From the NCBI GenBank assembly GCA_949358305.1, contig OX442319.1, positions 8,992,001 through 9,052,000 of the forward strand: DNA of 60,000 bases. The letters are read 5' to 3'. Origin of the DNA: Strigamia acuminata. Lineage: Eukaryota; Arthropoda; Chilopoda; Geophilomorpha; Linotaeniidae. The notes under the pieces are model-generated. The model was given only the letters and a program-made list of their open reading frames with translations. It was not told where the DNA came from and did not search any database. The stretch's first letter is position 1; every line of letters starts with the position of its first letter. The translations under genes and the position numbers were made by a program. Positions 8,406-41,034 of the stretch are shown here, piece by piece.

Positions 8406-10480
8406 GGCACGACATTCAAAAATTAAGGACAAGTCTTTTTTTGCGCCATATTGAAACGGTCACCACTCGAAAACTAAGAGGGCTGCATAGTTGTCCTTTT
8501 CAGGGTTAGTAGAGGAGAATGTCCTCTTTCATTTGCTTTTTCAAGAAAAAAAATCCGTCGTCACGTTTTCGAAATATTTTAATTTGAAGTTGTGGCACGA
8601 CATTCGAAAATTTAGGACAAGTCTTTTTTTGGGGCGCCATATTGAAACGGTCACCGCTCGAAAACTAAGAGGGCTGCATAGTTGTCCTTTTCAGGGTTTG
8701 TAAAGGAGAATGTCTTCTTTAATTTGGTTTTTCAAAAAAAGAAATCCGTCGTCAGGTTTTCGAAATATCTTAATTTGAAGTTGTGGCACGACATTCAAAA
8801 ATTAAGGACAAGTCTTTTTTTGCGCCATATTGAAACGGTCACCACTCGAAAGCTAAGAGGGCTGCATAGTTGTCCTTTTCAGGGTTTGTAGAGGAGAATG
8901 TCCTCTTTCATTTGCTTTTTCAAGAAAAAAAATCCGTCGTCACGTTTTCGAAATATTTTAATTTGAAGTTGTGGCACGACATTCGAAAATTTAGGACAAG
9001 TCTTTTTTTGGGGCGCCATATTGAAACGGTCACCGCTCGAAAACTAAGAGGGCTGCATAGTTGTCCTTTTCAGGGTTTGTAAAGGAGAATGTCTTCTTTA
9101 ATTTGGTTTTTCAAAAAAAGAAATCCGTCGTCAGGTTTTCGAAATATCTTAATTTGAAGTTGTGGCACGACATTCAAAAATTAAGGACAAGTCTTTTTTT
9201 GCGCCATATTGAAACGGTCACCACTCGAAAACTAAGAGGGCTGCATAGTTGTCCTTTTCAGGGTTTGTAAAGGAGAATGTCTTCTTTAATTTGGTTTTTC
9301 AAAAAAAGAAATCCGTCGTCAGGTTTTCGAAATATCTTAATTTGAAGTTGTGGCACGACATTCAAAAATTAAGGACAAGTCTTTTTTTGCGCCATATTGA
9401 AACGGTCACCACTCGAAAACTAAGAGGGCTGCATAGTTGTGCTTTTCAGGGTTTGTAGAGGAGAATGTCTTCTTTCATTTGGTTTTTTAAAAAAAGAAAT
9501 CTGTTGTCAGGTTTTCGAAATATTTTAATTTGAAGTTGTGGCACGACATTCAAAAATTAAGGACAAGTCTTTTTTTGCGCCATATTGAAACGGTCACCAC
9601 TCGAAAACTAAGAGGGCTGCATAGTTGTCCTTTTCAGGGTTTGTAAAGGAGAATGTCTTCTTTAATTTGGTTTTTCAAAAAAAGAAATCCGTCGTCAGGT
9701 TTTCGAAATATCTTAATTTGAAGTTGTGGCACGACATTCAAAAATTAAGGACAAGTCTTTTTTTGCGCCATATTGAAACGGTCACCACTCGAAAACTAAG
9801 AGGGCTGCATAGTTGTGCTTTTCAGGGTTTGTAGAGGAGAATGTCTTCTTTCATTTGGTTTTTTAAAAAAAGAAATCTGTTGTCAGGTTTTCGAAATATT
9901 TTAATTTGAAGTTGTGGCACGACATTCGAAAATTTAGGACAAGTCTTTTTTTGGGGCGCCATATTGAAACGGTCACCGCTCGAAAACTAAGAGGGCTGCA
10001 TAGTTGTCCTTTTCAGGGTTTGTAAAGGAGAATGTCTTCTTTAATTTGGTTTTTCAAAAAAAGAAATCCGTCGTCAGGTTTTCGAAATATCTTAATTTGA
10101 AGTTGTGGCACGACATTCAAAAATTAAGGACAAGTCTTTTTTTGCGCCATATTGAAACGGTCACCACTCGAAAACTAAGAGGGCTGCATAGTTGTGCTTT
10201 TCAGGGTTTGTAGAGGAGAATGTCTTCTTTCATTTGGTTTTTTAAAAAAAGAAATCTGTTGTCAGGTTTTCGAAATATTCCAGTTTGAAGTTGTGGCACC
10301 ACATTCGGAAATTTAGGACAAGTCTTTTTTTGCGCCATATTGAAACGGTCGCCGCTCGATAACCAAGAGGGGTAGAGAGTTGTGCTTTTCAGGGTTTGTT
10401 AAGGAGAAAGTCCTCTATTTTTTGGTGTAAAAATCATTGAAATCCGTGGTAAAAAAAAAATTGGGATTTGTTCTATCTGT
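8406..10480 (+). repeat. Right-arm array of ~188/191-base units
   Basis: The start of a 69-70-codon frame (MSFSG) recurs at 8491, 8682, 8870, 9061, 9249, 9625 and 10004, giving alternating unit lengths of 188 and 191. The difference is GCGCC against GGGGCGCC. Neither length is a multiple of three, so every frame ends after one unit. I read this as a satellite, not a repeat protein. Confidence 0.9.
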
Positions 10481-16009: not shown

Positions 16010-19000
16010 TCTTTTTTCGCCAATGTGTGAAGCCAAGTGTAATCACCTTTTCAACATTACTCTTCCATTTGGGTAATTCACAGCATGTCCCTCGTTTGAG
16101 TTCTTTTGCTGAAACCCGTGAAAATCACTTGACCGAGCACGCCACACGTGTTAGTTTGGCAGAAGTGGTAGCGCCTTTTACCGTAGGACCAACTACCAAC
16201 TTCTTCGGAAGCACCTTTTATCTTAGGATCAACTTCCCCGGAAGCACCTTTTATCGTAGGATCAACTTCCCCGGAAGCACCTTTTATCTTAGGATCAACT
16301 TCCCCGGAAGCACCTTTTATCTTAGGATCAACTTCCCCGGAAGCACCTTTTATCTTAGGATCAACTTCCCCGGAAGCACCTTTTATCTTAGGATCAACTT
16401 CCCCGGAAGCACCTTTTATCTTAGGATCAACTTCCCCGGAAGCACCTTTTATCTTAGGATCAACTTCCCCGGAAGCACCTTTTATCTTAGGATCAACTTC
16501 CCCGGAAGCACCTTTTATCTTAGGATCAACTTCCCCGGAAGCACCTTTTATCTTAGGATCAACTTCCCCGAAAGCATCTTTTATCTTAGGATCAACTTCC
16601 CCGGAAGCACCTTTTATCTTAGGATCAACTTCCTCCCAGACTCAATGCCAAACTGTGAAAAACATCATTACTTGCAATTTGTGGGATCCATCCATTGCTG
16701 TCAAAAGAAACCAAAGAATAAAATTAATAACCAACAATAAAAAAAACATTAATTTAAATAAATTACCTGTAGAAATCTGCGTAGTGGTAAAATCCTTTTT
16801 CATCAGCAAACGCAAGCTAGTTTAACACAAATTAGCATTACTCGAGCTGAGTTCTTTTTGCGCCACTGTGTGAAGCCAAGTGTAATCACCTTTTCAACAT
16901 TACTCTTCCATTTGGGTAATTCACAGCATGTCCCTCGTTTGAGTTCTATTGCTGAAACCCGTGAAAATCACTTGACCGAGCACGCCACACGTGTTAGTTT
17001 GGCAGAAGTGGTAGCGCCTTTTACCGTAGGACCAACTACCAACTTCTTCGGAAGCACCTTTTATCTTAGGATCAACTTCCCCGGAAGCACCTTTTATCTT
17101 AGGATCAACTTCCCCGGAAGCACCTTTTATCTTAGGATCAACTTCCCCGGAAGCACCTTTTATCTTAGGATCAACTTCCCCGGAAGCACCTTTTATCTTA
17201 GGATCAACTTCCCCGGAAGCACCTTTTATCTTAGGATCAACTTCCCCGAAAGCACCTTTTATCTTAGGATCAACTTCCCCGGAAGCACCTTTTATCTTAG
17301 GATCAACTTCCCCGGAAGCACCTTTTATCTTAGGATCAACTTCCTCCCAGACTCAATGCCAAACTGTGAAAAACATCATTACTTGCAATTTGTGGGATCC
17401 ATCCATTGCTGTCAAAAGAAACCAAAGAATAAAATTAATAACCAACAATAAAAAAAACATTAATTTAAATAAATTACCTGTAGAAATCTGCGTAGTGGTA
17501 AAATCCTTTTTCATCAGCAAACGCAAGCTAGTTTAACACAAATTAGCATTACTCGAGCTGAGTTCTTTTTGCGCCACTGTGTGAAGCCAAGTGTAATCAC
17601 CTTTTCAACATTACTCTTCCATTTGGGTAATTCACAGCATGTCCCTCGTTTGAGTTCTTTTGCTGAAACCCGTGAAAATCACTTGACCGAGCACGCCACA
17701 CGTGTTAGTTTGGCAGAAGTGGTAGCGCCTTTTACCGTAGGACCAACTACCAACTTCTTCGGAAGCACCTTTTATCTTAGGATCAACTTCCCCGGAAGCA
17801 CCTTTTATCTTAGGATCAACTTCCCCGGAAGCACCTTTTATCTTAGGATCAACTTCCCCGGAAGCACCTTTTATCTTAGGATCAACTTCCCCGGAAGCAC
17901 CTTTTATCTTAGGATCAACTTCCCCGGAAGCACCTTTTATCTTAGGATCAACTTCCTCCCAGACTCAATGCCAAACTGTGAAAAACATCATTACTTGCAA
18001 TTTGTGGGATCCATCCATTGCTGTCAAAAGAAACCAAAGAATAAAATTAATAACCAACACTAAATAAAACATTAATTTAAATAAATTACCTGTAGAAATC
18101 CCTGTAGTGATAAAATCCTTTTTCATCAGCAAACACAAGCTAGTTTAACACAAATTAGCATTACTCGAGCTGGGTTCTTTTTGCGCCACTGTGTGAAGCC
18201 AAGTGTAATCACCTTTTCAACATTACTCTTCCATTTGGGTAATTCACAGCATGTCCCTCGTTTGAGTTCTATTGCTGATATCCGTGAAAATCACTTGACC
18301 GCGCATAAAAGACGATAGTGAGTGGTGGCTAACAATGCTCGGCTGCATATAGCGAGGTATAGCGCCTTGGTCTTGCCTATCACATATCAATTTACGCGCA
18401 GCGGTAGCGCCTTTTACTGTAGGACCAACTACCAACTTCTTTGGAAGCGCCTTTTATCTTAGGACCAACTTCCCCGGAAGCACCTTTTATCTTAGGATCA
18501 ACTTCCCCGGAAGCACCTTTTATCTTAGGATCAACTTCCTCCCAGACTCAATGCCAAACTGTGAAAAACATCATTACTTGCAATTTGTGGGATCCATCCA
18601 TTGCTGTCAAAAGAAACAAAAAAATAAAATTAATAACCAACAATAAATAAAACATTAATTTAAATAAATTACCTGTAGAAATCTGCGTAGTGGTAAAATC
18701 CTTTTTCATCAGCAAACGCAAGCTAGTTTAACACAAATTAGCATTCCTCGAGCTGAGTTCTTTTTGCGCCAATGTGTGAAGCCAAGTGTAATCACCTTTT
18801 CAACATTACTCTTCCATTTGGGTAATTCACAGCATGTCCCTCGTTTGAGTTCTGTTGCTGAGACCCGTGAAAATCACTTGGCCGTGCACGCCACACTTGT
18901 AAGTTTGGCAAGCGGTAGCGCCTTTTACAGTAGGACCAACTACCAACTTCCAACTTCTTCGGAAGCGCCTTTTATCTTAGGACCAACTTCCAACTTCTTC

Positions 19001-22029: not shown

Positions 22030-22704
22030 TGCATTCCCTTCCAAGCAAGTATCGCCATGCAGAATCACTACATAAAGAAGGGGCGCATCAAATCTTTACA
22101 ATAAGCTTATAGAAAAAATAAATCTCTTTTAAAATTTTAATATTCAACCAGCTTATCTTAATTCGTATTGAATTTGAGACGGAATTTACCTCGATTTATA
22201 AAGTGATTAAGTTGTAAATAATGAATTTTTTAAGACTTACTTACACAAATGTGTGTTTGTGCATTTTGCTCGTCGAACTCGAACGTGATGTCGACGAAGG
22301 CCAATTGTGGTGTCGTTATTGTGACTGTATAATTGGATGTTTAATCTGAAATAAAGAGGTAAGCAAATTAAATGCACAATTTTCACAAAAATATTTTAAA
22401 AAATAAATTCTCAAAGAAAAATATATATTTTTATTAACATTTTTCTTGTTTTTCCTTTTCTCTATCATTATTCATGTAAAATTCCAAATTGTTCTTGCAA
22501 TTCTAATCGGGCTGAAAGTTTTAGGTGAATAAAATTTTAAAAAAAAATCAATATTTCAATTTTGTTCGTGCTTTTACAACTGTTTAACCTCAATAACACA
22601 CATTTTTAAACTTTTTACGTTTACAGATGGCAGCTGTCAGTTTACAATAGATGCTTCGCTGCATCACAAATTAGTAAATGTACGATGTTTCACTTTTTTT
22701 CGAA
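22030..22704. repeat. Segmental duplication, left copy
   Basis: From AAGTATCGCCATGCAG through ATCACTACATAAAGAAGGGG, CCAATTGTGGTGTC, TAATCTGAAATAAAGAGG to CATCACAAATTA, the sequence recurs in the same orientation at 25185-25830. It continues after the foldback at 24688. Confidence 0.8.
22245..22345 (-). other. Exon-like coding relic in the duplication (copy 1)
   Basis: On the minus strand the acceptor TTTATTTCAG|AT and the donor TGT|GTAAGTAAG bracket 101 bases. One frame reads TTPQLAFVDITFEF and then DEQNAQTHIC up to the donor, which looks coding, but a TAA lies three bases inside the exon in this frame. Not recognised as a known protein. Confidence 0.25.
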
Positions 22705-22712
22705 GGTTTACT

Positions 22713-24687
22713 ATGGTGGCCCAGAAGGGCCATCGTAATTTGTTTAAAAATAGAAAAATTTACACGTGGCCCAAGAGGGCCATCGGCCCAGGAGGGCCAA
22801 AAAAATAAAAAACTTCAAAAATGAAACAATTTCAAAATTTTGGAAAAGCCGTGGCCCAGGAGGGCCATCGACCCAGAAGGGCCACCCAAATTTTTTTCAT
22901 TTTTGATAAAATATCCACGTGGCCCAGGAGGGCCATCGGCCCAGAAGGGCCAAAAAAATAAAAAATTTCAAAAATAAAATTTTTTTGAAATTTTTGAAAA
23001 GCCGTGGCCCAGGAAGGCCATCGACCCAGAAGGGCCATCAAAATTTTTTCTATTTATTGGAAAAAAGTCCACGTGGCCCAAGAGGGCCATGGGACCAGGA
23101 GGGCCATCGGCCCAGGAGGGCCAAAAAAATAAAAAATTTCAGAAATGAAATTTTTTTGAAATTTTTCATTTTTTACTTTTTTGGCCCTCCTGGGCCGATG
23201 GCCCTCCTGGGCCACGTGTAAATTTTTCTATTTATTAGAAAAAAGTCCACGTGGCCCAGGAGGGCCATCGGACCAGAAGGGCCAAAGTCCCAAAACACCT
23301 CAAGATGATCCAAAAACTTCCCACAAACATAAAAACACCACCGAAATGGCTAAATCGCCGTGCACCGTGAGCCAGTTGGGCGGCGTGACAGAGCCCGGTG
23401 CGCCGCATCAAACGTCTTGGCCCGGCCAAGCGTCGAATTCGTCGTTTTGTTCGTCGCGGACTCCGGTTTTCGACGACTGGAGTTTCGGGAGTCCCGTGAA
23501 TTCCGTGAACGGGTCGGGTAACCCTGGTTTCGCGTTTGGCGGGGTCCACGAGTACTTTGCGCAGCCGCAATATCAACATTCGCCCGATTCGGGTGTGGAT
23601 GCGGGCAACAGTCGCCTGATTCGAGCGACGGGGTTTCGGGCTTGGCGTGTGCGGATCATCATCGAGTGTTGGCGGGGAGTCAGGATTGCGGCTCGGGGCT
23701 CGTGCAACACGGATTGAGGCCGCAGATGATGCGTGGTTCGTATGATTGGATGAAAAAAGCGTCGTATATGACACAATTGAGATTTTCAGTCGTTTGAAAT
23801 GCATTTTAAAACGTACAAAGTCACCTTTTTCTTGGGTTTTTATGTTTTAGACGTTTTATTTGATGTTTTAAGCCATTTTTCGTACTCTATTTTTACATTT
23901 TTTGAATGATTTAGCCATTTCGGTGGTGTTTTTATGTTTGTGGGAAGTTTTTGAATCATCTTGAGGTGTTTTGGGACTTTGGCCCTTCTGGTCCGATGGC
24001 CCTCCTGGGCCACGTGGACTTTTTTCCAATAATTAGAAAAATTTACACGTGGCCCAGGAGGGCCATCGGCCCAGGAGGGCCAAAAAAATAAAAAATGAAA
24101 AATTTTAAAAAAATTTCATTTCTGAATTTTTTTTTTTTTTTGGCCCTCCTGGGTCGATGGCCCTCCTGGTCCCATGGCCCTCCTGGGCCACGTGGACTTT
24201 TTTCCAATAAATAGAAAAAATTTCGATGGCCCTTCTGGGTCAATGGCCCTCCTGGGCCACGGCTTTTCAAAAATTTCAAAAAAATTTCATTTTTGAAATT
24301 TTTTATTTTTTTGGCCCTTCTGGGCCGATGGCCCTCCTGGGCCACGTGGATATTTTATCAAAAATGAAAAAAATTTGGGTGGCCCTTCTGGGTCGATGGC
24401 CCTCCTGGGCCACGGCTTTTCCAAAATTTTGAAATTGTTTCATTTTTGAAATTTTTTATTTTTTTGGCCCTTCTGGGCCGATGGCCCTCCTGGGCCACGT
24501 GGATATTTTATCAAAAATGAAAAAAATTTGGGTGGCCCTTCTGGGTCGACGGCCCTCCTGGGCCACGACTTTTCCAAAATTTTAAAATTGTTTAATTTTT
24601 GAAATTTTTTATTTTTTTGGCCCTCCTGGGCCACGTGTAAATTTTTCTATTTTTAAACAAATTACGATGGCCCTTCTGGGCCACCAT
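22713..24687. mobile_element. 2-kb foldback of TGGCCCAGGAGGGCCA units carrying a caudal exon fragment
   Basis: The ends ATGGTGGCCCAGAAGG and CCTTCTGGGCCACCAT are perfect inverted repeats. The arms consist of many GGCCCAGGAGGGCCATCGG motifs separated by AT-rich spacers, and are mirrored on the right. Flanking GGTTTACT (22705-22712) and AGTTTACT (24688-24695) form a 7-of-8 target duplication. The related segment at about 25860-25880 (AAGTTTACTTTAAAATAA) is an unoccupied site. Inner arms (AAAACACCTCAAGATGATC at 23290, mirrored at about 23950) enclose a unique GC-rich core, about 23358-23790, with a caudal-like frame. No transposase. Confidence 0.88.
23358..23790 (+). pseudogene. Captured caudal/Cdx homeobox gene fragment (exon before the homeodomain)
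   Basis: The core encodes, in one frame, a Ser/Gly-rich region with FDDWSFGSPVNS and PQYQHSPDSGVDAGN. A one-base loss near 23605 then moves the reading to the next frame, QSPDSSDGVSG through GLRPQMMRGS to YDWMKKASYMTQ (23741-23776). The Y-[D/E]-W-M-K-K-x-S-Y motif is the hexapeptide found just before the homeodomain in Caudal/Cdx proteins; other Hox classes have YPWM. Similarity stops exactly there and no homeodomain is present, as expected if one exon was captured. GC content is clearly above the surroundings. The frameshift and missing homeodomain make it non-functional as a transcription factor. Confidence 0.72.
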
Positions 24688-25184
24688 AGTTTACTTTAAA
24701 ATAAATTGATAATCTATTGTTAAAAGTATTTCAAAACTTTACAGAAATTTTTTTAACAACATATTGTAAAGACAGTATGTACTCATGTAAACATCGGATA
24801 AAATAATGTAAAAACGTCTAGAATCGGGTTCAAACCGTGTAAAATCGTGCTACATTGGGTTCAAACAGTATAAGAATGCGCAAAAACATGACAAAATGAT
24901 TAAAATCGAAAAAAGAATCGATAAAACTGTAAGCCGTATTAAAAACGAGAGGACACCACGTTAAACCAGTTGGAAAAAATAAATTTCTTTTAAAAATTTA
25001 TTATTCATAAGTAATATCTTAATTCACATTTAATTTGAAGCAAAATTTATTCACCCAAGTAAATGTGCTCATAAACAGACTCGTTCGAATTCAGCAAGTT
25101 TCGTAAAAATTACAAATACCGAAATTCATTCAATTATTTCCTAAAAATCTCAATAACACACGTTTTTAAATCTTTCTACAGTCC
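24688..25184. other. AT-rich continuation of the duplicated segment
   Basis: Follows the foldback with TTTACTTTAAAATAAA, matching 25868-25882. Later, ACAGTATAAGAATGCGC resembles 26033-26049, and the TTAAACCAGTTGGAAAAAAT stretch at 24962-24981 resembles 26123 with the MITE removed. No gene. Confidence 0.55.
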
Positions 25185-26129
25185 TTCCAACCAAGTATCG
25201 CCGTGCAGGATCACTACATAAAGAAGGGGCGCCTCAAATCTTTACAATAAGCTTTTAGAAAAAATAAATATCTTTTAAAATTTTAATATTCAACCAGCAT
25301 ATCTTAATTCGTATTGAATTTGAGACAGAATTTACCTCGATTTATAAAGTGATTAAGTTGTAAATAATGAATTTTTTAAGATTTACTTACACAAGTGTGT
25401 GTTTGTGCATTTCCTCGTCGAACTCGAACATGTCGACGAAGGCCAATTGTGGTGTCATTATTGCAGCTGTATAATTGGATATTTAATCTGAAATAAAGAG
25501 GAAAGCAAATTAAATACATAATTTACACAAAAATATTTTAAATAATAAATTTTCAAAGGGAAATATATATTTTTATTAATATTTTTCTTATTTTTCCTTT
25601 TCTCCCCCATTATTCATGTAAAATTCCAAATTGTTCTTGCAATTCTAATCGGGCTGGAAGTGTTACTTGTAGGTGAATAAAAGTTTTCAAAAAATCAATT
25701 TTTTAATTTTTTTCGTGCTTTTACAACTGTTTAACCTCAATAACACACGTTTTTAAACTTTTTACGTTGTCAGACGACAGCTGTCAGTCAACACTAGATG
25801 CTTCACTGCATCACAAATTAACAAATACCGCAAATGATGTTTTTTGGTTTAACTTTGAAAAAGTTTACTTTAAAATAATGTGAAACTATTGTTAAAAGGT
25901 ATTTCAATACTTTTCAAGAATTTTTTAATAAATTATTATAAAAACGTGTGAACTCATGTAAAATTCGGATAGAATAAAAATCGTGCTATACCAAGTTCAA
26001 ACAGTGTAAAATCGTGCTTTATCGGGTTCAAACAGTGTAAGAATGCTCACAAACATGACAAAATGATTAAAGTCGAAAGAAAAAAATCGAAAAAATTTAT
26101 TATAAATCGGAGGAAACCACATTAAACTA
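25185..26129. repeat. Segmental duplication, right copy
   Basis: Direct copy of 22030-22704 plus 24688-24960 without the foldback, about 85-90% alike by eye. Confidence 0.8.
25391..25487 (-). other. Exon-like coding relic in the duplication (copy 2)
   Basis: Same splice-like boundaries as copy 1 and an open frame from an ATG, MTPQLAFVDMFEF then DEEMHKHTL up to GTAAGT. Small indels relative to copy 1 change the frame near the donor. Unrecognised. Confidence 0.25.
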
Positions 26130-26437
26130 CAGTCCGCGCACGGTATCTTGATGCTAAATTCGTACTGCGCATCCCATTTTGCGCAGACGATTGTCTAATT
26201 CCATTGTCTAATATTAGGCCTAATAATGCGAAAATAAGGTAAATAAACAAAAATATTTTGGTACTGCTGTAAATTACTTTTAATTATGACTTTATTGTTG
26301 TTTATTTACTTTATTTTAGCATTATTAGGCCTAATATTAGGCTTAATACTGCTAAATAACAACTGGAATTAGAAAATCGTCTGCGCAGAATGGGATGCGC
26401 AGTACGAATTTAGCATCAAGATACCGTGCACGGACTA
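26130..26437. mobile_element. Palindromic MITE
   Basis: CAGTCCGCGCACGGTATC at the left end and GATACCGTGCACGGACTA at the right end. The inverted arms run through CTGCGCATCCCATTTTGCGC to the centre, where ATTAGGCCTAATA recurs. TA/TAG-like flanks suggest a Tc1/mariner relative. It interrupts a TTAAAC...GGAAAAAAT junction that is continuous at 24962. Confidence 0.82.
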
Positions 26438-26488
26438 TAGTAGGGGAAAAAAATTTATTTTGTAAATTTAATATTCATAAGCAATATC

Positions 26489-26941
26489 GGCTGTTGTTCA
26501 CTTCTGTCCCAATGTTTGCCATTGTTAGGTCAGGTTAGGTCAGGTCAGGTTAGGTCAGGTCAGGTTAGGTCAGGTTAGGTCAGGTTAGGTCAGGTTAGGT
26601 CAGGTTAGGTCAGGTTAGGTCAGGTCAGGTCAGGTCAGGTCAGGTCAGGTCAGGTCAAGTCAGGTCAGGTTAGGTCAGGTTAGGTCAGGTTAGGTCAGGT
26701 TAGGTCAGGTTAGGTCAGGTTAGGTCAGGTTAGGTCAGGTTAGGTCAGGTCAGGTCAGGTTAGGTCAGGTTAGGTCAGGTCAGGTCAGGTCAGGTCAGGT
26801 CAGGTCAGGTCAGGTCAGGTCAGGTTAGGTCAGGTTAGGTCAAGTTAGGTCAGGTCAGGTCAGGTTAGGTCAGGTTAGGTCAGGTTAGGTGCTGCAACAC
26901 AGTGAAAACACGAAACATTGGGGCAGAAGTGAACTACAACT
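26489..26941. mobile_element. TIR element carrying a TTAGG/TCAGG array, 8-base duplication
   Basis: The ends GTTGTTCACTTCTGTCCC and GGGCAGAAGTGAACTACAAC are inverted repeats. GCAATATC flanks both sides exactly (26481-26488, 26942-26949). The same host sequence is uninterrupted at about 25005 (CATAAGTAATATCTTAATTC), giving an empty site. The only cargo is the pentamer array. No transposase. Confidence 0.88.
26525..26889. repeat. TTAGGTCAGG array
   Basis: About 73 pentamers mixing TTAGG and TCAGG. It is TTAGG-like on the plus strand, the opposite orientation to the array at 2984-3148. Confidence 0.92.
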
Positions 26942-30934: not shown

Positions 30935-31081
30935 CGGTGTATTTTTTTGTTTTCGTACCATACTACGGCATTGATTCGTCGGCGTTTTACAATATACGTT
31001 ATTGCAACGTACGAAACAATAACGTTCTCATATATAACAGACACAGCTGTGAATTCAAAGCAATTTCAAATTCGGCTAGAA

Positions 31082-32527
31082 ATGTCTGAATTAGGCGAAT
31101 GCTGTTCCGTCAAAAAGCAGACGCTCGACGATAACCTTGGGCCAAATAACATCCGATATTCATTCACGCCGGCAACACTTCAACAAATTTCTCTGGTGAA
31201 GGTTGTAACTAACGCTTGGTGCACGAATGTCATCGACCAGATGAAAGATTTTTTCATATCTGACTACTATATACAACACTACGATGACGAAGATGACATC
31301 GACTGCGAGAGCCTAGAATGGAAAAAAGTTGAAAACGCCTTGCTGGAAAGTGTGTTGAAATTACCACTACCGAAAATATTCAAAACTAGTTTAGTCGAAC
31401 TTGTTACACCAACGAGCGAACAAATAGTGAAATGGATAAACTATCGAATCCAGCAGAATTTATTCAAATGTTCCATAAGCGACTTAATTTGGACGCCGGG
31501 TGCAACGATAGACGAAAAGTCAACGGCGATCAAATTATTATCCGACAGTCGCGTTGATGTTTACGAAAAGTACGAACTTGCTTGCACTTTTTGTTTAGAG
31601 GAACATCTCGCCACTTTCACCCCGAATTTCTTTTTTGCTGAATACGTGTTTTTCCTCGACTTACATCGAAATCCGATGGTGTATTATTGGACGTGGCAAA
31701 TTATCAAGGACGAGAAATTGGAGGAAGCTTATTTCAATGAAAGCTTCAACGAGTATGTGTTTCAATATGTTGCACACCGTTCTGGATCTGATGCAGCGGT
31801 CAGATACATGTGGAACCAATTGAGCGATGAGGAGAAAGAAGTGAATTTAATTGATGCTGTTATGTGGTCGAGGGATGCTAATAGTGTTTCTTTTTTCTTA
31901 TCCCTGATGAATGAGAATCAGTGGAGAGAAGTATTCGAACAACCAGATTGTGATCGAGTGTTAGTGAAGCTTTTGTTAAGTTGGCGATGGCGGGATTATT
32001 TGTTGCCCACGATGCAAAGAGTTTGGGGGATTATACACGGAGATGTTTTAGTTTCGGTGTTGGATAAAGTGGCAAAAAGTGAGATTAGTGTTTTGATTAG
32101 GGCTGCTTTTGCGGAAATGTGGAAAAGAGCACCTACTCACTTGAAACAATATGTTTTTGAAAGTTTTAGAACTTTCAGCGGTATATTGTCTGGATTATTT
32201 CGTATGGAAGCTGGAGATTTAGTTGTTTTGATGCTTCATTCTGCGAGTGTTGTGCAGAAGAAAGAATTGATTCATTCGAAGTACGGAATGAACCAATGTG
32301 CCGAGTTGTTGATGGTAAAGCAATGGGATTTGTTTGATGTTTTTGTTAAACATAGTGTTTTGTGCGAGAAGGATGTTGGGGAGTTTATGGAGAGATTTGC
32401 GAGGGAAAAAGGAACGGATGTTTGTAATTACTTGATTGAGAATAATGAATTGGGCGAGGTGGACAAATTCATGAATCGGTGTTTGAAATCGGAAGATGAA
32501 ATATCTCGTTTCAAGCAGCAATTGTGA
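31082..32527 (+). CDS. Tandem paralogue 1, uncharacterised helical protein (~480 aa)
   Basis: 481 codons from the MSELGE start; the frame continues 45 codons upstream but that extension is interrupted in paralogues 2 and 5, so I prefer this start. Conserved blocks, in order: SFTPATLQQISLVKVVTNAW, an acidic variable loop (YYIQHYDDEDDIDCES), WTPGATIDEK, YELACTFCLEEHL, SDAAVRYMWNQLSDEEK, SWRWRDYLLPTMQRVWGI, an AAFAEMWKRAP block, and a C-terminus with CAELLMVKQWDLFDVFVKH and KSEDEISRF. The Trp/Leu/Phe spacing suggests stacked helices as in an ankyrin- or HEAT-like solenoid. No signal peptide, membrane span or catalytic motif is visible. AATAAA at 32599. I do not recognise the family. Confidence 0.85.
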   Translation: MSELGECCSVKKQTLDDNLGPNNIRYSFTPATLQQISLVKVVTNAWCTNVIDQMKDFFISDYYIQHYDDEDDIDCESLEWKKVENALLESVLKLPLPKIFKTSLVELVTPTSEQIVKWINYRIQQNLFKCSISDLIWTPGATIDEKSTAIKLLSDSRVDVYEKYELACTFCLEEHLATFTPNFFFAEYVFFLDLHRNPMVYYWTWQIIKDEKLEEAYFNESFNEYVFQYVAHRSGSDAAVRYMWNQLSDEEKEVNLIDAVMWSRDANSVSFFLSLMNENQWREVFEQPDCDRVLVKLLLSWRWRDYLLPTMQRVWGIIHGDVLVSVLDKVAKSEISVLIRAAFAEMWKRAPTHLKQYVFESFRTFSGILSGLFRMEAGDLVVLMLHSASVVQKKELIHSKYGMNQCAELLMVKQWDLFDVFVKHSVLCEKDVGEFMERFAREKGTDVCNYLIENNELGEVDKFMNRCLKSEDEISRFKQQL

Positions 32528-33482
32528 TTGATTTGATACTTTGATACTTAATCCAAATACGATTTTTAGTTTTTAGTGTGAATTATTATTGTCGTTGAAT
32601 AAAATGTAGCCACTTTTAATTTTTTAAAGCCAATCTGTCTCTCACTTCCTACGATCCTGTCATAAAGCACAAATAAACTAAAATAAATAGACAACAAACT
32701 ATCAGGTGGATCAAATAAAACTGGCCCGACAATAGTAACCTCCTTGCTTTGTCCGGGTTTATGTGAAACACACAGTAGTTTATCGATAATTGACATCTAC
32801 CAGTTCCATCAATTTCTTATACAAGTCAACCAATTTTAATAAAATATTTTAACATTTTATTTATTTAATTTATTTGTTATTGTTACCGGTATATAAAAAG
32901 CAGAATTCACCGCAGCTCACTTGTCAGTGCGGTCATGATGGATGTTATGAACAGTTATTTTTACTCTGAATAAAATGTGGTCACTTTGTTTTGTTTTTAG
33001 TGGATTCAGAAGATTGAAAAAAGGAGAAATTAAAATATGAGTGCATTTATTGTATAAAATGCATAGATGGCGCCACAAGAAAAGCACGTCATAAATTGAC
33101 ACAATGGTATTTAAAATTTGATTGCTATTGGTTGGTACAAAATCGTAGAAAACGACATTTGTGGAAGCCACGATACCCAGTCGCTTGAATTTTGCTTTTC
33201 AAATTCATCGTAACATCTAGAAATCAGCGAACAAGAGAATCGTAAGTGGTAAATATATTTGATTTATAAAACAAAGTTCTTTATGCTTTTATTTAAAAAT
33301 GTTTTTTTCTTTCTTTCCATTTCTTCATAGCCGTGTATTTTTTTGTTTTCGTACAATACTACGGCATTGATTCGTCGGCGTTTTACAATATACGTCATTG
33401 CAACGCACAAAACAATAGCGTTCTCATATACTGTATAATAGACACAGCTGTGAATTCAAAGTAATTTCAAATTCGGCTAGAA

Positions 33483-34925
33483 ATGTCTGAATTAGGCGAA
33501 TGCAGTTCCGTCAAAAAGCAGACGCTCGACAATAACCGTGGACCAAATAACATCCGATATTCATTCACGCCGGCAACACTTCAACAAATTTCTCTGGTGA
33601 AAGTTGTAACTAACGCCTGGTGTACGAACGTCATCATGGCAGATTTTTTAAAATCTGACTACTATGAAGACCACCAGTTTAAGGAAGATGACATCTACTG
33701 CGAGAGCCAAGAATGGAAAAAAGTTGAAAACGCCTTGCTGGAAAGTGTGTTGGACTTACCAATACCGAAAATATTCAAAACTAGTTTAGTCGAACTTGTA
33801 AAACCAACGAGCGAAGAAATAGTGAAATGGATAAACTATCGAATCCAGCAGAATTTATTCAATTGTTCCATAAGCGACTTAATTTGGACGCCGGGTGCAA
33901 CGATAGACGAGAAGGCAACGGCGATCAAATTGTTATCCGATAGTCGCGTGAATGCTTGCGAAAAATACGAACTTGCTTGCACTTTTTGTTTAGAGGAAGA
34001 TCTCGCCACCATCGCCCCGAATATCTTTTTGGCTCATTACTTGAATTACCTCAACTTAGATCGAGAACCGATGCTATGTTATTGGACGTGGAAAATAACC
34101 AAGAAATTGCCGAAAGTTTATTTCAATCAAAGCATCAACGAGTATGTGTTTCAAATTGTCTTATACGATTCTCGATCTGATGCAGCGGTCAGATACATGT
34201 GGAACCAACTGAGCGACGACGAGAAAGCAATGAATTTAACTAAATCTGTTTTTGAGTCGAGGGATGCTGATAGTATGTGCTTTTTCTTATCTCAGTGGGA
34301 TGAGAAGCAGTGGAGAGGAGTATTCGGACAACCAGGTTGTTATCGATTGTTACTGAAACTTTTATTCAGTTGGCGATGGCGGGATTACTTGTTGCCCACT
34401 TTGCAAAGAGTTTGGGGAATTATACACGGAGATGTTTTTGTTTCGTTGTTGGATAAAGTGGCAACAACTGATGATAGTGTTTTTCCCAGGGCTGCTTTTA
34501 CGGAAATGTGGAAAAAAGCACCTAATCACTTGAAAGAATATGTTTTTGAAAGTTTTAGAGCTTTCAGCGGTATATTGTCTGGATTATTTCGTAGGGAAGC
34601 TGTAGATTTAATTGTTTTGATGCTGGATTCCGCGAGTGTTGTGCAGAAGAAAGAATTTATTCATTCGAAGTACGGTATGAACCAATGTGCCGAGTTGTTG
34701 ATGGCAAAGCAATGGGATTTGTTTGATGTTTTTGTTAAACATAGTGTTTTGTGCGAGAAGGATGTTGAGGAGTTTATGGAGAGATTTGCGAGGGAAAAAG
34801 GAAGGGATGTTTGTGATCATTTCGTAGGGAAGAATGAATTTGGCGAGGTGGACAAATTCATAAATCGGTGTTTGAAATCGGAAGATGAAATATCTCGCTT
34901 CAAGCGCCAATTTAATATTTGTTAA
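33483..34925 (+). CDS. Tandem paralogue 2 of the ~480-aa family
   Basis: 480 codons from MSELGECSS. The same block order as paralogue 1, but the variable loop after VVTNAWCTNVI reads MADFLKSDYYEDHQ rather than DQMKDFFISDYYIQH. The middle has EPMLCYWTWKITKKLPKVYF and QWDEKQWRGVF, and the C-terminus GRDVCDHFVGKNE. It therefore resembles paralogue 5 at the N-terminus but paralogue 3 elsewhere. The 5'-UTR intron is retained. AATAAA at 35097. The upstream block 32930-33200 (GGATGTTATGAACAG, AGATGGCGCCACAAGAAAAG) is repeated before paralogues 3, 4 and 5. Confidence 0.85.
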   Translation: MSELGECSSVKKQTLDNNRGPNNIRYSFTPATLQQISLVKVVTNAWCTNVIMADFLKSDYYEDHQFKEDDIYCESQEWKKVENALLESVLDLPIPKIFKTSLVELVKPTSEEIVKWINYRIQQNLFNCSISDLIWTPGATIDEKATAIKLLSDSRVNACEKYELACTFCLEEDLATIAPNIFLAHYLNYLNLDREPMLCYWTWKITKKLPKVYFNQSINEYVFQIVLYDSRSDAAVRYMWNQLSDDEKAMNLTKSVFESRDADSMCFFLSQWDEKQWRGVFGQPGCYRLLLKLLFSWRWRDYLLPTLQRVWGIIHGDVFVSLLDKVATTDDSVFPRAAFTEMWKKAPNHLKEYVFESFRAFSGILSGLFRREAVDLIVLMLDSASVVQKKEFIHSKYGMNQCAELLMAKQWDLFDVFVKHSVLCEKDVEEFMERFAREKGRDVCDHFVGKNEFGEVDKFINRCLKSEDEISRFKRQFNIC

Positions 34926-35776
34926 TGTAAAGTGTTTCAAGCATGAAAAAAAGGAAGCAAAAGAGTTATAAAAACAAGAATTTCTGTTCAGCTGGCCCCT
35001 TGGATTTCTTGCACTGCTTTGTCTCCATTGAAATACATTCTTCACAGATGAAAACTTTTACTTTTGCGAAATATGTCTTTGCAAGTTACAATATTAATAA
35101 AATTCACATACCATAAATCTGCGGAATTGTCTATATTTTCTTGCTTAATTTCCAATTTTATAACACAAAACAAACTCAACCAATTTTAATAAAATATTTT
35201 AACATTTTATTTATTTAATTTATTTGTTATTGTTATATAAAAAGCAGAATTCACCGCAGCTCAGCGCGGTCACGATGGATGTTATGGACAGTTATTTTTA
35301 CTCTGAATAAAATATGGTCACTTTGTTTTCACTTTTGAGTGGATTCAGAAGATTGAAAAAAGAAGAAATTAAAATACGAGTGCATAGATGGCGCCACAAG
35401 AAAAGCACGTCATAAATTGACACAATGGTATTTAAAGTTTGATTGGTTGGTACAAAACGACATTTGTGAAAGCCACGATACCCAGTCGCTTGAATTTTGC
35501 TTTTCAAATTCATCGTAACATCTAGAAATCAGTAAACAAGTGGTAAATATATTTGATTTATAAAACAAAGTTTTTTATGCTTTATTTAAAAATGTTTTTT
35601 TCTTTCTTTCGATTTCTTCATAGCCGTGTATTTTTTTGTTTCCGCACCATACTACCGCATTGATTCATCGGCGTTTTAAAATATACGTTATTACAACGTA
35701 CAAAACAATAACATTCTCATACATAATACGCTTAGATACAACTATGAATTCACAGCAATTTCAAATTCGACTAGAA

Positions 35777-37225
35777 ATGTCTGAATTAGCCGAATGCATT
35801 TCCATCAAAAAGCTGAAGTTGACGCTCGACGATAACCTTGGACCAAATAACATCCGATATTCATTCACGCCGGCAACACTTCAACAAATTTCTCTGGTGA
35901 AGGTTGTAACTAACGCCTGGTGCACGAATGTCATCGACCAGATGGAAGATTTTTACATGTCTGACTACTATATACAACACTACGATGACGAAGATGACAT
36001 CGACTGCGAGAGTCAAGAATGGAATAAAGTTGAAAACGCCTTGCTGGAAAGTGTGTTGAACTTACCAATACCGAAAATATTAAAAACTAGTTTAGTCGAG
36101 CTTGTTGAACCAACGAGCGAAGAAATAGTGAAATGGATAAACTATCGAACCGTGCAGAAATTATTCAAATGTTCCATAAGCGACTTAATTTGGACGCCAG
36201 GTGCAACGATAGACGAGAAGGCAACGGCGATCAAATTGTTATCCGATAGTCGCGTGAATGTTTACGAAAAGTACGAACTTGCTTGCACTTTTTGTTTAGA
36301 GGAACATCTCGCCACCATCACCCCGAAATTCTTTGATTGTGATTACTTGCATTTCCTCAACTTAAGTCGAGAACCGATGATATATTATTGGTCGTGGAAA
36401 ATTAGCAAGAAATTGCCGAAAGTTTATCGCAATCAAAGCTTCAACGAGAAGGTGTTTCAATCTGTCTTATATAATGGATCTGATGCAGCGGTCAGATACA
36501 TGTGGAACCAACTGAGCGACGACGAGAAAGAAATGAATTTAATTAATGCTGTTTTTGGGTCGAGGCATGCTGATAGTGTGTGTTTTTTCTTATCTCAGTG
36601 GGATGAGACGCAGTGGAGAGGAGTATTCGGACAACTACGTTGTTATCGAGTGTTACTGCAACTTTTATTCAGTTGGCGATGGCGGGATTACTTGTTGCCC
36701 ACTTTGCAAAGAGTTTGGGGGATTATACACGGAGATGTTTTAGTTTTGGTGTTGGATAAAGTGGCAACAACTGGTGTTAGTGTTTTTCCCAGGGCTGCTT
36801 TTACGGAAATGTGGAAAAGAGCACCTAATCACTTAAAACAATATGTTTTTGAAAGTTTTGGCGCTTTCAGTGGTATATTGTCTGGATTATTTCGTAGGGA
36901 AGCTGTAGATTTAGTTGTTTTGATGCTGGATTCCGCGAGTGTTGTGCAGAAGAAAGAATTTATTCATTCGAAGTACGGTATGAACCTATGTGCCGAGTTG
37001 TTGCTGGCAAAGCAATGGGATTTTTTTGATGTTTTTGTTGAACGTAGTGTTTTGGGCGAAAAGGATGTTGGGGAGTTTATGGAGAGGTTTGCGAGGGAAA
37101 AGGGAAGGGATGTTTGTGATCATTTCGTAGGGAAGAATGAAAAGGGCGAGGTGGACAAATTCATGAATCGGTGTTTGAAATCGGAGGACGAAATATCTCG
37201 CTTCAAGCGCCAATTTAATATTTGA
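35777..37225 (+). CDS. Tandem paralogue 3 of the ~480-aa family
   Basis: 482 codons from MSELAECIS. Two in-frame upstream Mets exist, at 35636 and before NSQQFQ, but conservation favours the MSELAE start. The N-terminal loop (DQMEDFYMSDYYIQHYDDED) is of the paralogue 1 type; the middle (EPMIYYWSWKISKKLPKVY, QWDETQWRGVF) and end (GRDVCDHFVGKNE) are of the paralogue 2 type. AATAAA at 37319. Confidence 0.85.
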   Translation: MSELAECISIKKLKLTLDDNLGPNNIRYSFTPATLQQISLVKVVTNAWCTNVIDQMEDFYMSDYYIQHYDDEDDIDCESQEWNKVENALLESVLNLPIPKILKTSLVELVEPTSEEIVKWINYRTVQKLFKCSISDLIWTPGATIDEKATAIKLLSDSRVNVYEKYELACTFCLEEHLATITPKFFDCDYLHFLNLSREPMIYYWSWKISKKLPKVYRNQSFNEKVFQSVLYNGSDAAVRYMWNQLSDDEKEMNLINAVFGSRHADSVCFFLSQWDETQWRGVFGQLRCYRVLLQLLFSWRWRDYLLPTLQRVWGIIHGDVLVLVLDKVATTGVSVFPRAAFTEMWKRAPNHLKQYVFESFGAFSGILSGLFRREAVDLVVLMLDSASVVQKKEFIHSKYGMNLCAELLLAKQWDFFDVFVERSVLGEKDVGEFMERFAREKGRDVCDHFVGKNEKGEVDKFMNRCLKSEDEISRFKRQFNI

Positions 37226-37877
37226 TAATGCAAATTGCTTTGTCTCCATTGAGTTTTCATTCTTCACAGATGAAAACTTCTACATTTTTCGATGTATACC
37301 TTCGCAAATTACAGTATTAATAAAAATCACATACCATAAATCTGCGAAATTGTCTATATTTTCTTGCTTAATTTCCAATTTTATAACACAAAACAAATTC
37401 AACCAATTTAAATTAAATATTTCAACATTTTATTTATTTGTTACCGTTATATCAAATGGAGAATTTACTGCAGCATGTCATGATGGATGTTAAGAAAATT
37501 ATTTTTACTCCGAATAAAATGTGGTCACTTTGTTTTGTTTTGAGTGGATCCAGAAGATTGAAAAAAGGAGAAATAAAAATAAAAATACGAGTGCTTTTAT
37601 TGTATAAAATACATAGATGGCGCCACAAGAAAAGTGCGTCATAAATTGACACAATGGTATTTAAAGTTTGATTGCTATTGGTTGGTACAAAACGACATTT
37701 GTGGAAGCCACGATACGCTTGAATTTTGATTTTCAAATCCATCGTAACATCTAGAAATCAGTAAACAAGCGTAAACAAGTGGTAATTATATTTGATTTAT
37801 TAGTTTTTTGTATAGGTTTATTTATTTAAACTTTAATTTGGCTCTAATTCCAGACTAGTTCTAAATTTTTCGGCGAA

Positions 37878-38414
37878 ATGAGCGAAGGAGGTGGATGCAG
37901 TCCAGTAAAAAAGCTGAAAACGACGCCGGAAACAAGTTTTATTCGATATACATTCACGCCAGAAACACTACAAGATATTTCGATGATCAAGGTTGTAACC
38001 AACTTGTGGGACACGGTTGATGACGATCAGATGAAAGATTGTTGTGTAACTACTTACGACAGTTTAATACCGTGGACTTTTGTTAACATTCAGTCCGACA
38101 GCGCAGAATGGAAAAAAGTTGAAGACACCATTTTGGATAATGTGTCTAACTTGGATCTACCAAAATCACTCACAGCTAGATTATTACAATTTGTTAAACC
38201 AACTAGTAGAGAAATAGTGAACTGGATAAACTTTCTGCATCAAAAGCATTCGATTATTTGTTATGTGCCATCTAAAAAAAACAAAGAAAACGTTCCTAAA
38301 AGTCTTGAAATAAATTCATCCCGACATTGGAATGTTTTCATGATGGATGTTATGAAAAGTTTGTCATTATTGAACAGTTATTTTTTACTCTCTTCATTGT
38401 TTTGTTTTGTGTGA
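37878..38414 (+). pseudogene. Tandem paralogue 4, diverged and truncated
   Basis: From MSEGGGCSPVKKLK the frame follows the family's N-terminus at moderate identity (FTPETLQDISMIKVVTNLW, WKKVEDTILDNV, FVKPTSREIVNWINF) for about 130 residues. After PSKKNKENVPK it runs into sequence shared with intergenic DNA (ATGATGGATGTTATGAAAAG) and stops at 38414. The WTPGATIDEK and all later blocks are absent. The leader has its own UTR intron (GGTAATTATA to TCTAATTCCAG). It is the most divergent copy, probably an older paralogue cut by unequal exchange. A short N-terminal protein could still be made. Confidence 0.65.
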
Positions 38415-38475
38415 TTCAGAAGATTGTAAATTTGGAAATGGTTATTACCCTTAATAAAATTTTTATACATTAAAA

Positions 38476-38780
38476 AAATGATTTTTTAATCAAAAAATCA
38501 ATTTTTTAACCACAAAATTAATTTTTTAACCAAAAAAATCAATTTTTTAACCAACAAATCAATTTTTTAACCAACAAAATCAATTTTTTAACAAAAAAAA
38601 TCAATTTTTTAACAAAAAAATCAATTTTTTAACCAACAAAATCAATTTTTTAACAAAAAAAATCAATTTTTTAACAAAAAAATCAATTTTTTAACAAAAA
38701 AATCAATTTTTTAACAAAAAAATCAATTTTTTAACCAACAAATCAATTTTTTAACAAAAAAATCAATTTTTTAACCAAAA
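38476..38780. repeat. AATCAATTTTTTAACAAAAA minisatellite
   Basis: About fifteen units of 19-21 bases directly after the truncated paralogue. The same array type appears at 41339-41600. Confidence 0.9.
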
Positions 38781-38930
38781 AGAAATAAAAATGGACTGTC
38801 ATGGTAGTCATGGTGGTCAAATGGTAGAGAATCCATAGTTTTCGTTTCATTGGCACTAAACGATAAAAAACACAAATGTTTGGTTGTTTTTTCATAAACA
38901 TCAAACTTTATTGGCATTTTACTCTTGTTT
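38781..38930. repeat. Duplicate of the NRBF2 3' flank
   Basis: GAAATAAAAATGGACTGTCA, ATGGTAGAGAATCCATA, GGCACTAAACGATAAAAA and CATCAAACTTTATTGGCATT recur at 41600-41740, where they lie immediately downstream of the NRBF2 gene and include its poly(A) signal. So the truncated-paralogue tail, minisatellite and NRBF2 flank were duplicated as a block. Confidence 0.75.
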
Positions 38931-39588
38931 CACTTTGACCATGCCTCAGGCGTACTGCTGTCACCCCTCTTGGTGACCCACTTTAGAAGGAGTGCCTTCT
39001 GCACACTCCTCCTCAGTTTACATCTCCACTTCCAGAGCGCTTGCAATGCAGCCTCTGATAGCCCCTTAATAATACTTAATATTAGTTCCTCATTTTCCCA
39101 CCGTCACAAAATGTGGCCACTTTATTTTGTTTTGAGTGAATTCAAAAGATTGAAAAAAGGAGAAAAAAAAATATGGTTGCTTTTATTGTATAAAATGCAT
39201 AGATGGCGCCACAAGAAAAGCGCGTCAGAAATTGACACAACTGTATTTAAAGTTTGATTGGTACAAAACGACATTTGTGAAAGCCACGATACCCAGTCGC
39301 TTGAATTTTGCTTTTAAAATTCATCGTAACATCTAGAAATCAGTAAACAAGTGGTAAATATATTTGATTTATAAAACAAAGTTTTTTATGCTTTTATTTA
39401 AAAATGTTTTTTTCTTTCTTTTGATTTCTTCATAGCCGTGTATTTTTTTGTTTTCGTACCATACTACGGGATTGATTCGTCGGCGTTTTAAAATATATGT
39501 TATTGCAACGTACAAAACAATCACATTCTCGTATGTAATAAGCTTAAATACAACTGCGAATTCATAGCAATTTCAAATTCGACTAGAA

Positions 39589-41034
39589 ATGTCTGAATTA
39601 GGCGAATGCAGTTCCGTTAAAAAGCAGACGCTCGACGATAACCTTGGACTAAATAACATCCGATATTCATTCACGCCGGCATCACTTCAACAAATTTCTC
39701 TGGTGAAAGTTGTAACTAACGCCTGGTGTACGAACGTCATCATGGCAGATTTTTTCAAATCTGACTACTATAAAGACCACAACCATAGCGAAGGTTACAT
39801 CGACTGCGAGAGCCAAGAATGGAAAAAAGTTGAAAACGCCTGGCTGGAAAGTGTGTTGAACTTACAAATACCGAAAATATTAAAAACTAGTTTACTCGAA
39901 CTTGTTAAACCGACGAGCGAACAAATAGTGAAATGGATAAACTATCGAATCCAGCAGAATTTATTCAAATGTTCCATAAGCGACTTAATTTGGACGCCGG
40001 GTGCAACGATAGACGAGAAGGCAACGGCGATCAAATTGTTGTCCGATAGTCGAGTGGATTTTTACGAAAAGTACGAACTTGCTTGCACGTTTTGTTTAGA
40101 GGAACATCTCGCCACCATCACCCCGAAATTCTTTGCTAATTACTCGTATTTCCTCGGCTGTCGTCTAAATCCGATGGTATATTATTGGACGTGGCAATTT
40201 ACCAAAAACGAGAGATGGAAGAGAATTTATTCCACGGAAAACTTCGACGAGTTGTATGTGTTTCGATATGTTGTTTACAGTTCTGGATCTGATGCAGCGG
40301 TCAGATACCTGTGGAACCAACTGAGGGACTGGGAGAAAGAAATGTATTTAATTGATGCTATGATGGAATTGACGGATGCGGATAGTGTGTCTTTTTTGTT
40401 ATCTCGGATGAATGAGAATCAGTGGAGAAAAGTATTCGAACAACGAGATTGTTATCGAGTGTTGCTGAAACTTTTATTCAGTTGGCGATGGCGGGATTAC
40501 TTGTTGCCAACGATGCAAAGAGTTTGGGGGATTATACACGGAGAAGTTTTAGTTTTGGTGTTGAATAAAGTGGCAACAACTGATGTTAGTGTTTTTCCCA
40601 GGGCTGCTTTTACGGAATTGTGGAAAAGTGCACCTAATCACTTGAAAGAATATCTTTTTGAAGGTTTTAGAGATTTCAGTCGTATATTGTCTGCATTATT
40701 TCGTAGGGAAGCTGTAGATTTAGTTGTTTTGATGCTGGATTCCGCGAGTGTTGTGCAGAAGAAAGAATTGATTCATTCGAATTACGGAATGAACCAATGT
40801 GCCGAGTTGTTGATGGCGAAGCAATGGGATTTGTTTGATGTTTTTGTTAAACTAACTCTTTTGTGCGAGAAGGATGTTGGGGAGTTTATGGAGAGATTTG
40901 CGAGGGAAAAAGGAACGGGTGTTTGTAATTACTTGATTGAGAATAATGAATGCGGCGAGGTGGACAAATTCATGAATCGGTGTTTGAAATCGGAAGATGA
41001 AATATCTCGCTTTAAGCGCCAATTTAATATTTGA
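39589..41034 (+). CDS. Tandem paralogue 5 of the ~480-aa family
   Basis: 481 codons from MSELGECSS. The loop MADFFKSDYYKDHNH is of the paralogue 2 type; the middle (NPMVYYWTWQFTKNE, MNENQWRKVFEQ) and C-terminus (GTGVCNYLIENNECGEVDKF) match paralogue 1. The leader and UTR intron are conserved. It carries more private substitutions than the others in the central third (for example RDWEKEMYLIDAMMELTD). Confidence 0.85.
   Translation: MSELGECSSVKKQTLDDNLGLNNIRYSFTPASLQQISLVKVVTNAWCTNVIMADFFKSDYYKDHNHSEGYIDCESQEWKKVENAWLESVLNLQIPKILKTSLLELVKPTSEQIVKWINYRIQQNLFKCSISDLIWTPGATIDEKATAIKLLSDSRVDFYEKYELACTFCLEEHLATITPKFFANYSYFLGCRLNPMVYYWTWQFTKNERWKRIYSTENFDELYVFRYVVYSSGSDAAVRYLWNQLRDWEKEMYLIDAMMELTDADSVSFLLSRMNENQWRKVFEQRDCYRVLLKLLFSWRWRDYLLPTMQRVWGIIHGEVLVLVLNKVATTDVSVFPRAAFTELWKSAPNHLKEYLFEGFRDFSRILSALFRREAVDLVVLMLDSASVVQKKELIHSNYGMNQCAELLMAKQWDLFDVFVKLTLLCEKDVGEFMERFAREKGTGVCNYLIENNECGEVDKFMNRCLKSEDEISRFKRQFNI

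Follow-up and report, generated by a model that had tools for sequence, protein, structure and literature searches.

Structure of the foldback element in the window

The stretch of DNA analysed here (the window; 60,000 nucleotides, C8:8992001-9052000 of the 237.5-Mb assembly of Strigamia acuminata) contains a foldback element with a GC-rich core located between inverted, modular arms rich in GGCCC. Sequence of a caudal-type homeobox gene, termed cad-2, is contained in this element. Two primer sequences of Tribolium castaneum, one for GAPDH (up to 1 mismatch allowed) and one for a microsatellite (up to 2 mismatches allowed), gave no match in the assembly, an outcome that argues, though not conclusively, against T. 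castaneum as its source. The following features were assigned in window coordinates:

22712..24688, no strand: whole foldback element, 1,977 bp, TATGGTGG...CCACCATA
22706..22711, no strand: left target site duplication, GTTTAC
24689..24694, no strand: right target site duplication, GTTTAC
22712..23281, no strand: left arm, GGCCC-rich modules with periods of 153 bp and 171 bp
23282..23356, minus strand: innermost part of the left arm, where the tail of the captured cad-2 intron recurs in inverted orientation, 75 bp, 92%
23356..23778, plus strand: captured cad-2 exon 1, 92% identity to the gene, frame-breaking 4-bp gap at 23595/23596
23777..23778, plus strand: site of a 28-bp deletion by which the exon 1 splice donor was lost, TT at both deletion edges in cad-2
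23779..23982, plus strand: captured cad-2 intron 1, 84% across 214 columns
23983..24688, no strand: right arm
25865..25870 (approximate), plus strand: unoccupied paralogous site, GTTTAC

The element starts with TATGGTGG at 22712 and stops with CCACCATA at 24688. Its termini are TA..TA and the end sequence of the family is TATGGTGGCCC. Comparison of the arms revealed 97% complementarity over 602 nt between 22755-23356 and 23908-24509, and 92% complementarity between the outer parts (22695-22782 and 24618-24705). The first-pass annotation had described perfect outer inverted repeats; the extreme ends are indeed identical, but the arm as a whole is imperfect, in its inner as well as in its outer part. 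Its reading of the locus as a foldback element with captured caudal sequence is borne out by these arms and by the cad-2 alignment given below. The unoccupied paralogous site placed at about 25865 is real as well, reading AAAAAGTTTACTTTAAAATAA where both flanks recur as a diverged direct repeat. Both peptides reported for the core, SPDSGVDAGN and YDWMKKASYMTQ, are encoded there, in two separate frames because a 4-bp gap relative to cad-2 lies between 23595 and 23596.

Elsewhere in the window, another inverted-repeat element (26126-26441) has 78-nt arms that are 95% complementary and separated by 160 nt. At 26524-26890 lies a tandem GTTAGGTCAG array with a period of 10, presumably TTAGG mixed with TCAGG, both telomere units of insects. 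Five long frames with similar starts (MSELGECSSVKK... and variants) form an apparent tandem gene family at 30935-41031; two tested frames of this family gave no Pfam match. A 33-bp unit occurs in three arrays (98% matches) within a larger repeated frame at 16197-17956, and 8406-10416 is occupied by a satellite-like array with a 188/379-bp period (97% matches at 379).

Source and extent of the captured sequence

Querying the genome with a homeodomain yielded 29 matches, of which the two best, both of caudal type, were cad-1 on C5 and cad-2 on C8. The cad-2 gene is located at about 14.11 Mb, on the same contig as the window and 5.1 Mb from it. Its exon 1 is open from the ATG to the GT donor, a further open exon is VKIWFQNRRAKERKQ, and the homeodomain exon is present 1.5 kb downstream of the core's best non-element match. 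With the first two exons joined, the best PDB structure matches were CDX-2 and CDX-1. Alignment of the core to cad-2 gave 92% identity across 442 columns of exon 1 (E = 7e-176) and 84% across 214 columns of intron 1, and identity to the cad-1 exon was only about 63%. The best non-element match of the core within its own assembly is, as anticipated, a gene with a caudal-type homeodomain. Judged by these alignments, the resemblance of the core to cad-2 is not due to chance, and the source of the captured core is this second caudal paralogue rather than cad-1. Pfam scans of the two core frames returned no caudal family, and the Caudal_act domain was reported for neither the cad-1 nor the cad-2 exon; a Caudal_act search gave no match here nor in 14 control genomes and is therefore uninformative. 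The dN/dS values of the copies against cad-2, which mix the branch of the gene with those of the copies, ranged from 0.17 to 0.57 (window copy and L013-L018; L020, a 10-codon piece, was left out).

The limits of the capture were determined on the reverse complement of L012, where cad-2 has its ATG at 1902 and its donor GT at 2449. In L013 and L014 the captured sequence starts at 1927, the 26th coding base of cad-2. On the right, the window copy and L014, L015, L016 and L017 have a common limit against the foldback arm at 2669, the last few bases of which are ambiguous with the arm. At its fullest, then, the capture spans exon 1 for 522 of its 547 coding bases and continues for up to 221 bp into intron 1. 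With this right limit in intron 1, the captured interval stops upstream of the cad-2 homeodomain exon, in agreement with the earlier proposal that the capture had halted before the homeodomain. According to the same proposal, one exon had been copied or excised. The fragment was copied rather than excised, because cad-2 remains in the genome and its exons are open; it is not one exon but part of exon 1 with part of intron 1. The copied piece is genomic DNA and disregards exon boundaries. In L013 and L014, about 210 bp of non-cad-2 sequence lie to the left of the captured piece and include a dispersed repeat with 15 further matches of 55-93 bp; this stretch gave no Pfam match. The original cargo was therefore a mosaic.

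A partial second cad-2 5' region (L019, C8:14246309-14246960) was observed 0.13 Mb from cad-2, matching it at about 90%, with gaps, across cad-2 1518-2283. It has no foldback arms.

Copies, insertion sites and superfamily

Searching the genome for the element end with up to 2 mismatches yielded 64 ends (32 forward, 32 reverse), and the reversed-pattern control yielded 0. These ends form 16 inward-facing pairs, every one under 2 kb, ten of them with the cad-2 core; of the six without it, sequences were taken for four (L034, L035, L037, L038). The captured intron piece, used as a query, matched 21 times in the genome; these matches fall at 14 loci, namely cad-2 and 13 others, all of the latter inside or near foldback arms (about 0.25 kb away in L040).

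The 433-bp cores of four copies (two on C8, one each on C6 and C3) are 100% identical, as would be expected had these elements transposed four times recently. Their flanks are shared too: the window copy, L009, L010 and L011 align over about 4.4 kb, comprising the element with about 1.3 kb to the left and about 1.1 kb to the right (some 2.4 kb of flank), at 98.1-99.6% identity. Four recent transpositions were rejected, their probability being negligible, and these copies are segmental duplicates. Of the 16 complete elements, 10 are of the cad-2-carrying form (7 of 13 without the three segmental duplicates); the cargo has therefore been no hindrance to spread. The search for cores flanked by the same arms, which the first-pass annotation had suggested, gave ten insertion sites, seven with complete elements (the window copy and L013-L018) and three partial (L020, L036, L040). 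By eye, the 40-bp flanks of the seven complete elements all differ.

In all eight independent copies that reach the donor (window copy, L013-L018, L020), an identical stretch of 28 bp with the splice donor is missing, and the same 10-bp deletion in the intron was found in 8/8. Since a working gene needs its donor, this loss arose in the element lineage. L016 and L017 have a further 9-bp loss in common, and in L015 the sequence adjoining the donor deletion is rearranged further. The left limits of the captured piece vary by copy (1927, 1999, 2085, 2103, 2107, 2134), which could mean that cad-2 was captured several times independently, by different foldbacks. Inner deletions account for this variation, however, and both the two deletions common to all eight copies and the right junction common to the window copy and L014-L017 argue against repeated capture, which we regard as very unlikely. 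From the shared sequence features, a single capture followed by transposition is the likely history. The indels are not nested, as L018 has the 4-bp gap without a 15-bp indel and L015 shows the reverse, so that either copies recombined or an indel recurred. L018 (C1:5422815-5424631) was also seen to contain a second left end internally, and its flanks are mutually inverted across at least 40 bp.

Target site duplications were assessed in 11 complete elements (window copy, L013-L018, L034, L035, L037, L038). A perfect 6-bp duplication was present in 7/11 and in none of 110 mismatched flank pairs used as controls, and perfect duplications of 3-5 or 7-10 bp occurred in none of the 11. The other four were imperfect, with one mismatch each in L015 and L034, a shifted duplication in L038 and the inverted flanks in L018. 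The duplication around the window copy is accordingly 6 bp (GTTTAC) rather than the 8 bases previously reported, a length that had included the terminal A/T of the element.

A DDE_Tnp_1_7 transposase fragment, which we take to be of piggyBac type, was noted no more than 2.8 kb from a foldback end (L041, C1:37890000-37892800). It is probably an unrelated neighbour, because its group makes 4-bp duplications (PMC10045372). A transposase-sized partner element was sought, and among the 64 ends no inward-facing pair longer than 2 kb and shorter than 20 kb was found. The frames of seven single-ended copies, judged by eye, contained no matching transposase. For PF13683, 150 of 2,555 candidates were scored, mostly frames of at least about 900 residues; none lay by eye within 20 kb of an end, and the matches in long frames were taken for retroelements.

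The IS3EU (GingerRoot) group, of which IS3EU-1_TC has been named in Tribolium castaneum (PMC5844308), is described as having TA..TA termini, with duplications that usually measure 6 bp (PMC10045372), as found here. Foldback arms, present in our elements, go unmentioned for IS3EU in the sections of these two papers that were drawn on. Membership in IS3EU is put forward as a proposal: the TA..TA ends and 6-bp duplications probably fit IS3EU rather than Mutator. A Mutator-type foldback resembling the FB4 Pack-MULE would share the long, modular arms and the captured host gene, both reported for Ssk-FB4 (PMC8277862), and since the duplications given for IS256/MuDR span 4-10 bp (PMC10045372), a Mutator origin is still compatible with 6 bp. 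Nevertheless, FB4 duplications are stated to be 9-10 bp (PMC8277862), and perfect duplications of this length, as in Drosophila FB and Mutator foldbacks, were present in 0/11 elements. With these differences, a Mutator-type origin is unlikely.

Arm extension, the parent gene and significance of the capture

Very probably, the observations reflect a foldback DNA transposon of the non-autonomous kind, which took a copy of part of cad-2 and subsequently transposed, carrying the cad-2 piece with it. The right junction reads TTTTGGGACTTTGG, and the corresponding cad-2 sequence is TTTTGGGATTTCGG. Inner arms not joined to cad-2 read AAAGTCCCATTTTGAT or a near variant (L018, L035, L039, L040, L041). 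By eye, the 5-bp motif TGGGA is common to arm and cad-2, and it occurs exactly or nearly so in these five loci. This one junction hints that TGGGA may have been the point at which the inner arm and cad-2 intron 1 were joined by template switching during the capture. The elements may then have been mobilised in trans by an IS3EU-type transposase.

In several copies the captured sequence has become part of the inverted arms. The inverted piece measures 75 bp in the window copy, 126 bp in L015 and 356 bp in L017, where it reaches into exon 1; each of the three starts from the foldback junction, and their reach varies. L018 contains a 49-bp inverted piece in a more complicated arrangement, and no inverted captured piece was found in L013, L014, L016 or L020. 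The simplest reading of the three graded copies is that one arm was repaired from the opposite arm beyond the junction, by which captured sequence would have joined the arms.

The consequences for a transcript were assessed by counting 21-mers. For cad-2 exon 1, the count in the window copy was 139 sense and 0 antisense 21-mers, and the exon sits in the loop. The earlier suggestion that a transcript across this palindrome would form a hairpin containing caudal sequence does not hold for this layout: the hairpin would not be caudal double-stranded RNA, and silencing by the window copy was rejected. L017 (C3:5118629-5119975) alone differs among the eight independent copies tested: its 21-mers identical to cad-2 exon 1 occur in both orientations, 85 in sense and 39 in antisense, and all of the antisense ones lie in the predicted stem. 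If transcribed, L017 would yield caudal double-stranded RNA, unlike the window copy. No 21-mer of the 9.9-kb cad-1 locus occurs in 6 of 7 copies tested; L018 shares 3 with it. It is conceivable, though highly improbable, that arms creep into captured exons to form palindromes and that L017 produces cad-2 double-stranded RNA regulating the parent gene. The more general view that the amplified cargo acts on its parent gene, with hairpin transcripts like that of L017 giving rise to small RNAs against cad-2, draws on the stem placement of the antisense 21-mers and is weakened by their occurrence in a single copy; we consider it extremely unlikely. Most likely, the cargo is a passenger without developmental function.

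Capture of host genes by transposons has been documented in animals: Tan et al. (2021) listed 370 Pack-TIRs in 100 animal genomes and described the Ssk-FB4 family (PMC8277862). The elements described here show the features of a Pack-TIR, with terminal inverted repeats and target duplications, an extant source gene (cad-2) and distinct insertion sites. The first-pass annotation had regarded gene capture as little described for animal foldbacks, which overstates the case in view of Ssk-FB4, a multicopy foldback Pack-TIR of Drosophila melanogaster (PMC8277862). As here, Ssk-FB4 is described as having long repetitive arms, copying a host gene including introns, moving it to several sites, showing microhomology at a breakpoint, for which template switching was proposed, and transposing repeatedly after a single capture (PMC8277862). 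It differs in its duplications of 9-10 bp and in carrying nearly the whole of Ssk, whereas our elements have 6-bp duplications and contain only part of a homeobox gene, lacking its donor and homeodomain. Tm1, a Mutator/foldback family of root-knot nematodes, also has foldback arms, and one subtype has been suggested to have acquired host sequence; Tm1 is described with a Phantom/Mutator-type transposase, and what the subtype would have taken up is a histone-hairpin motif instead of cad-2 (PMC3169594). Plant Pack-MULEs similarly carry host gene fragments between inverted repeats, but belong to the Mutator superfamily and to the plant kingdom (PMC8277862, PMC3169594), in contrast to the animal element studied here.

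Host gene capture by an animal foldback is rare, yet already described. Searches of the open-licence literature revealed no account of a transposon that had captured caudal. New here are the homeobox cargo, probably a different superfamily, and arms with graded extension into the captured sequence. A single animal genome displays the source gene, the limits of the capture, an inactivating deletion common to the copies and ten insertion sites, with a body-patterning homeobox gene as the cargo. Moreover, the graded arm extension suggests a route by which foldbacks may turn gene fragments into hairpins, a possible source of small RNAs.
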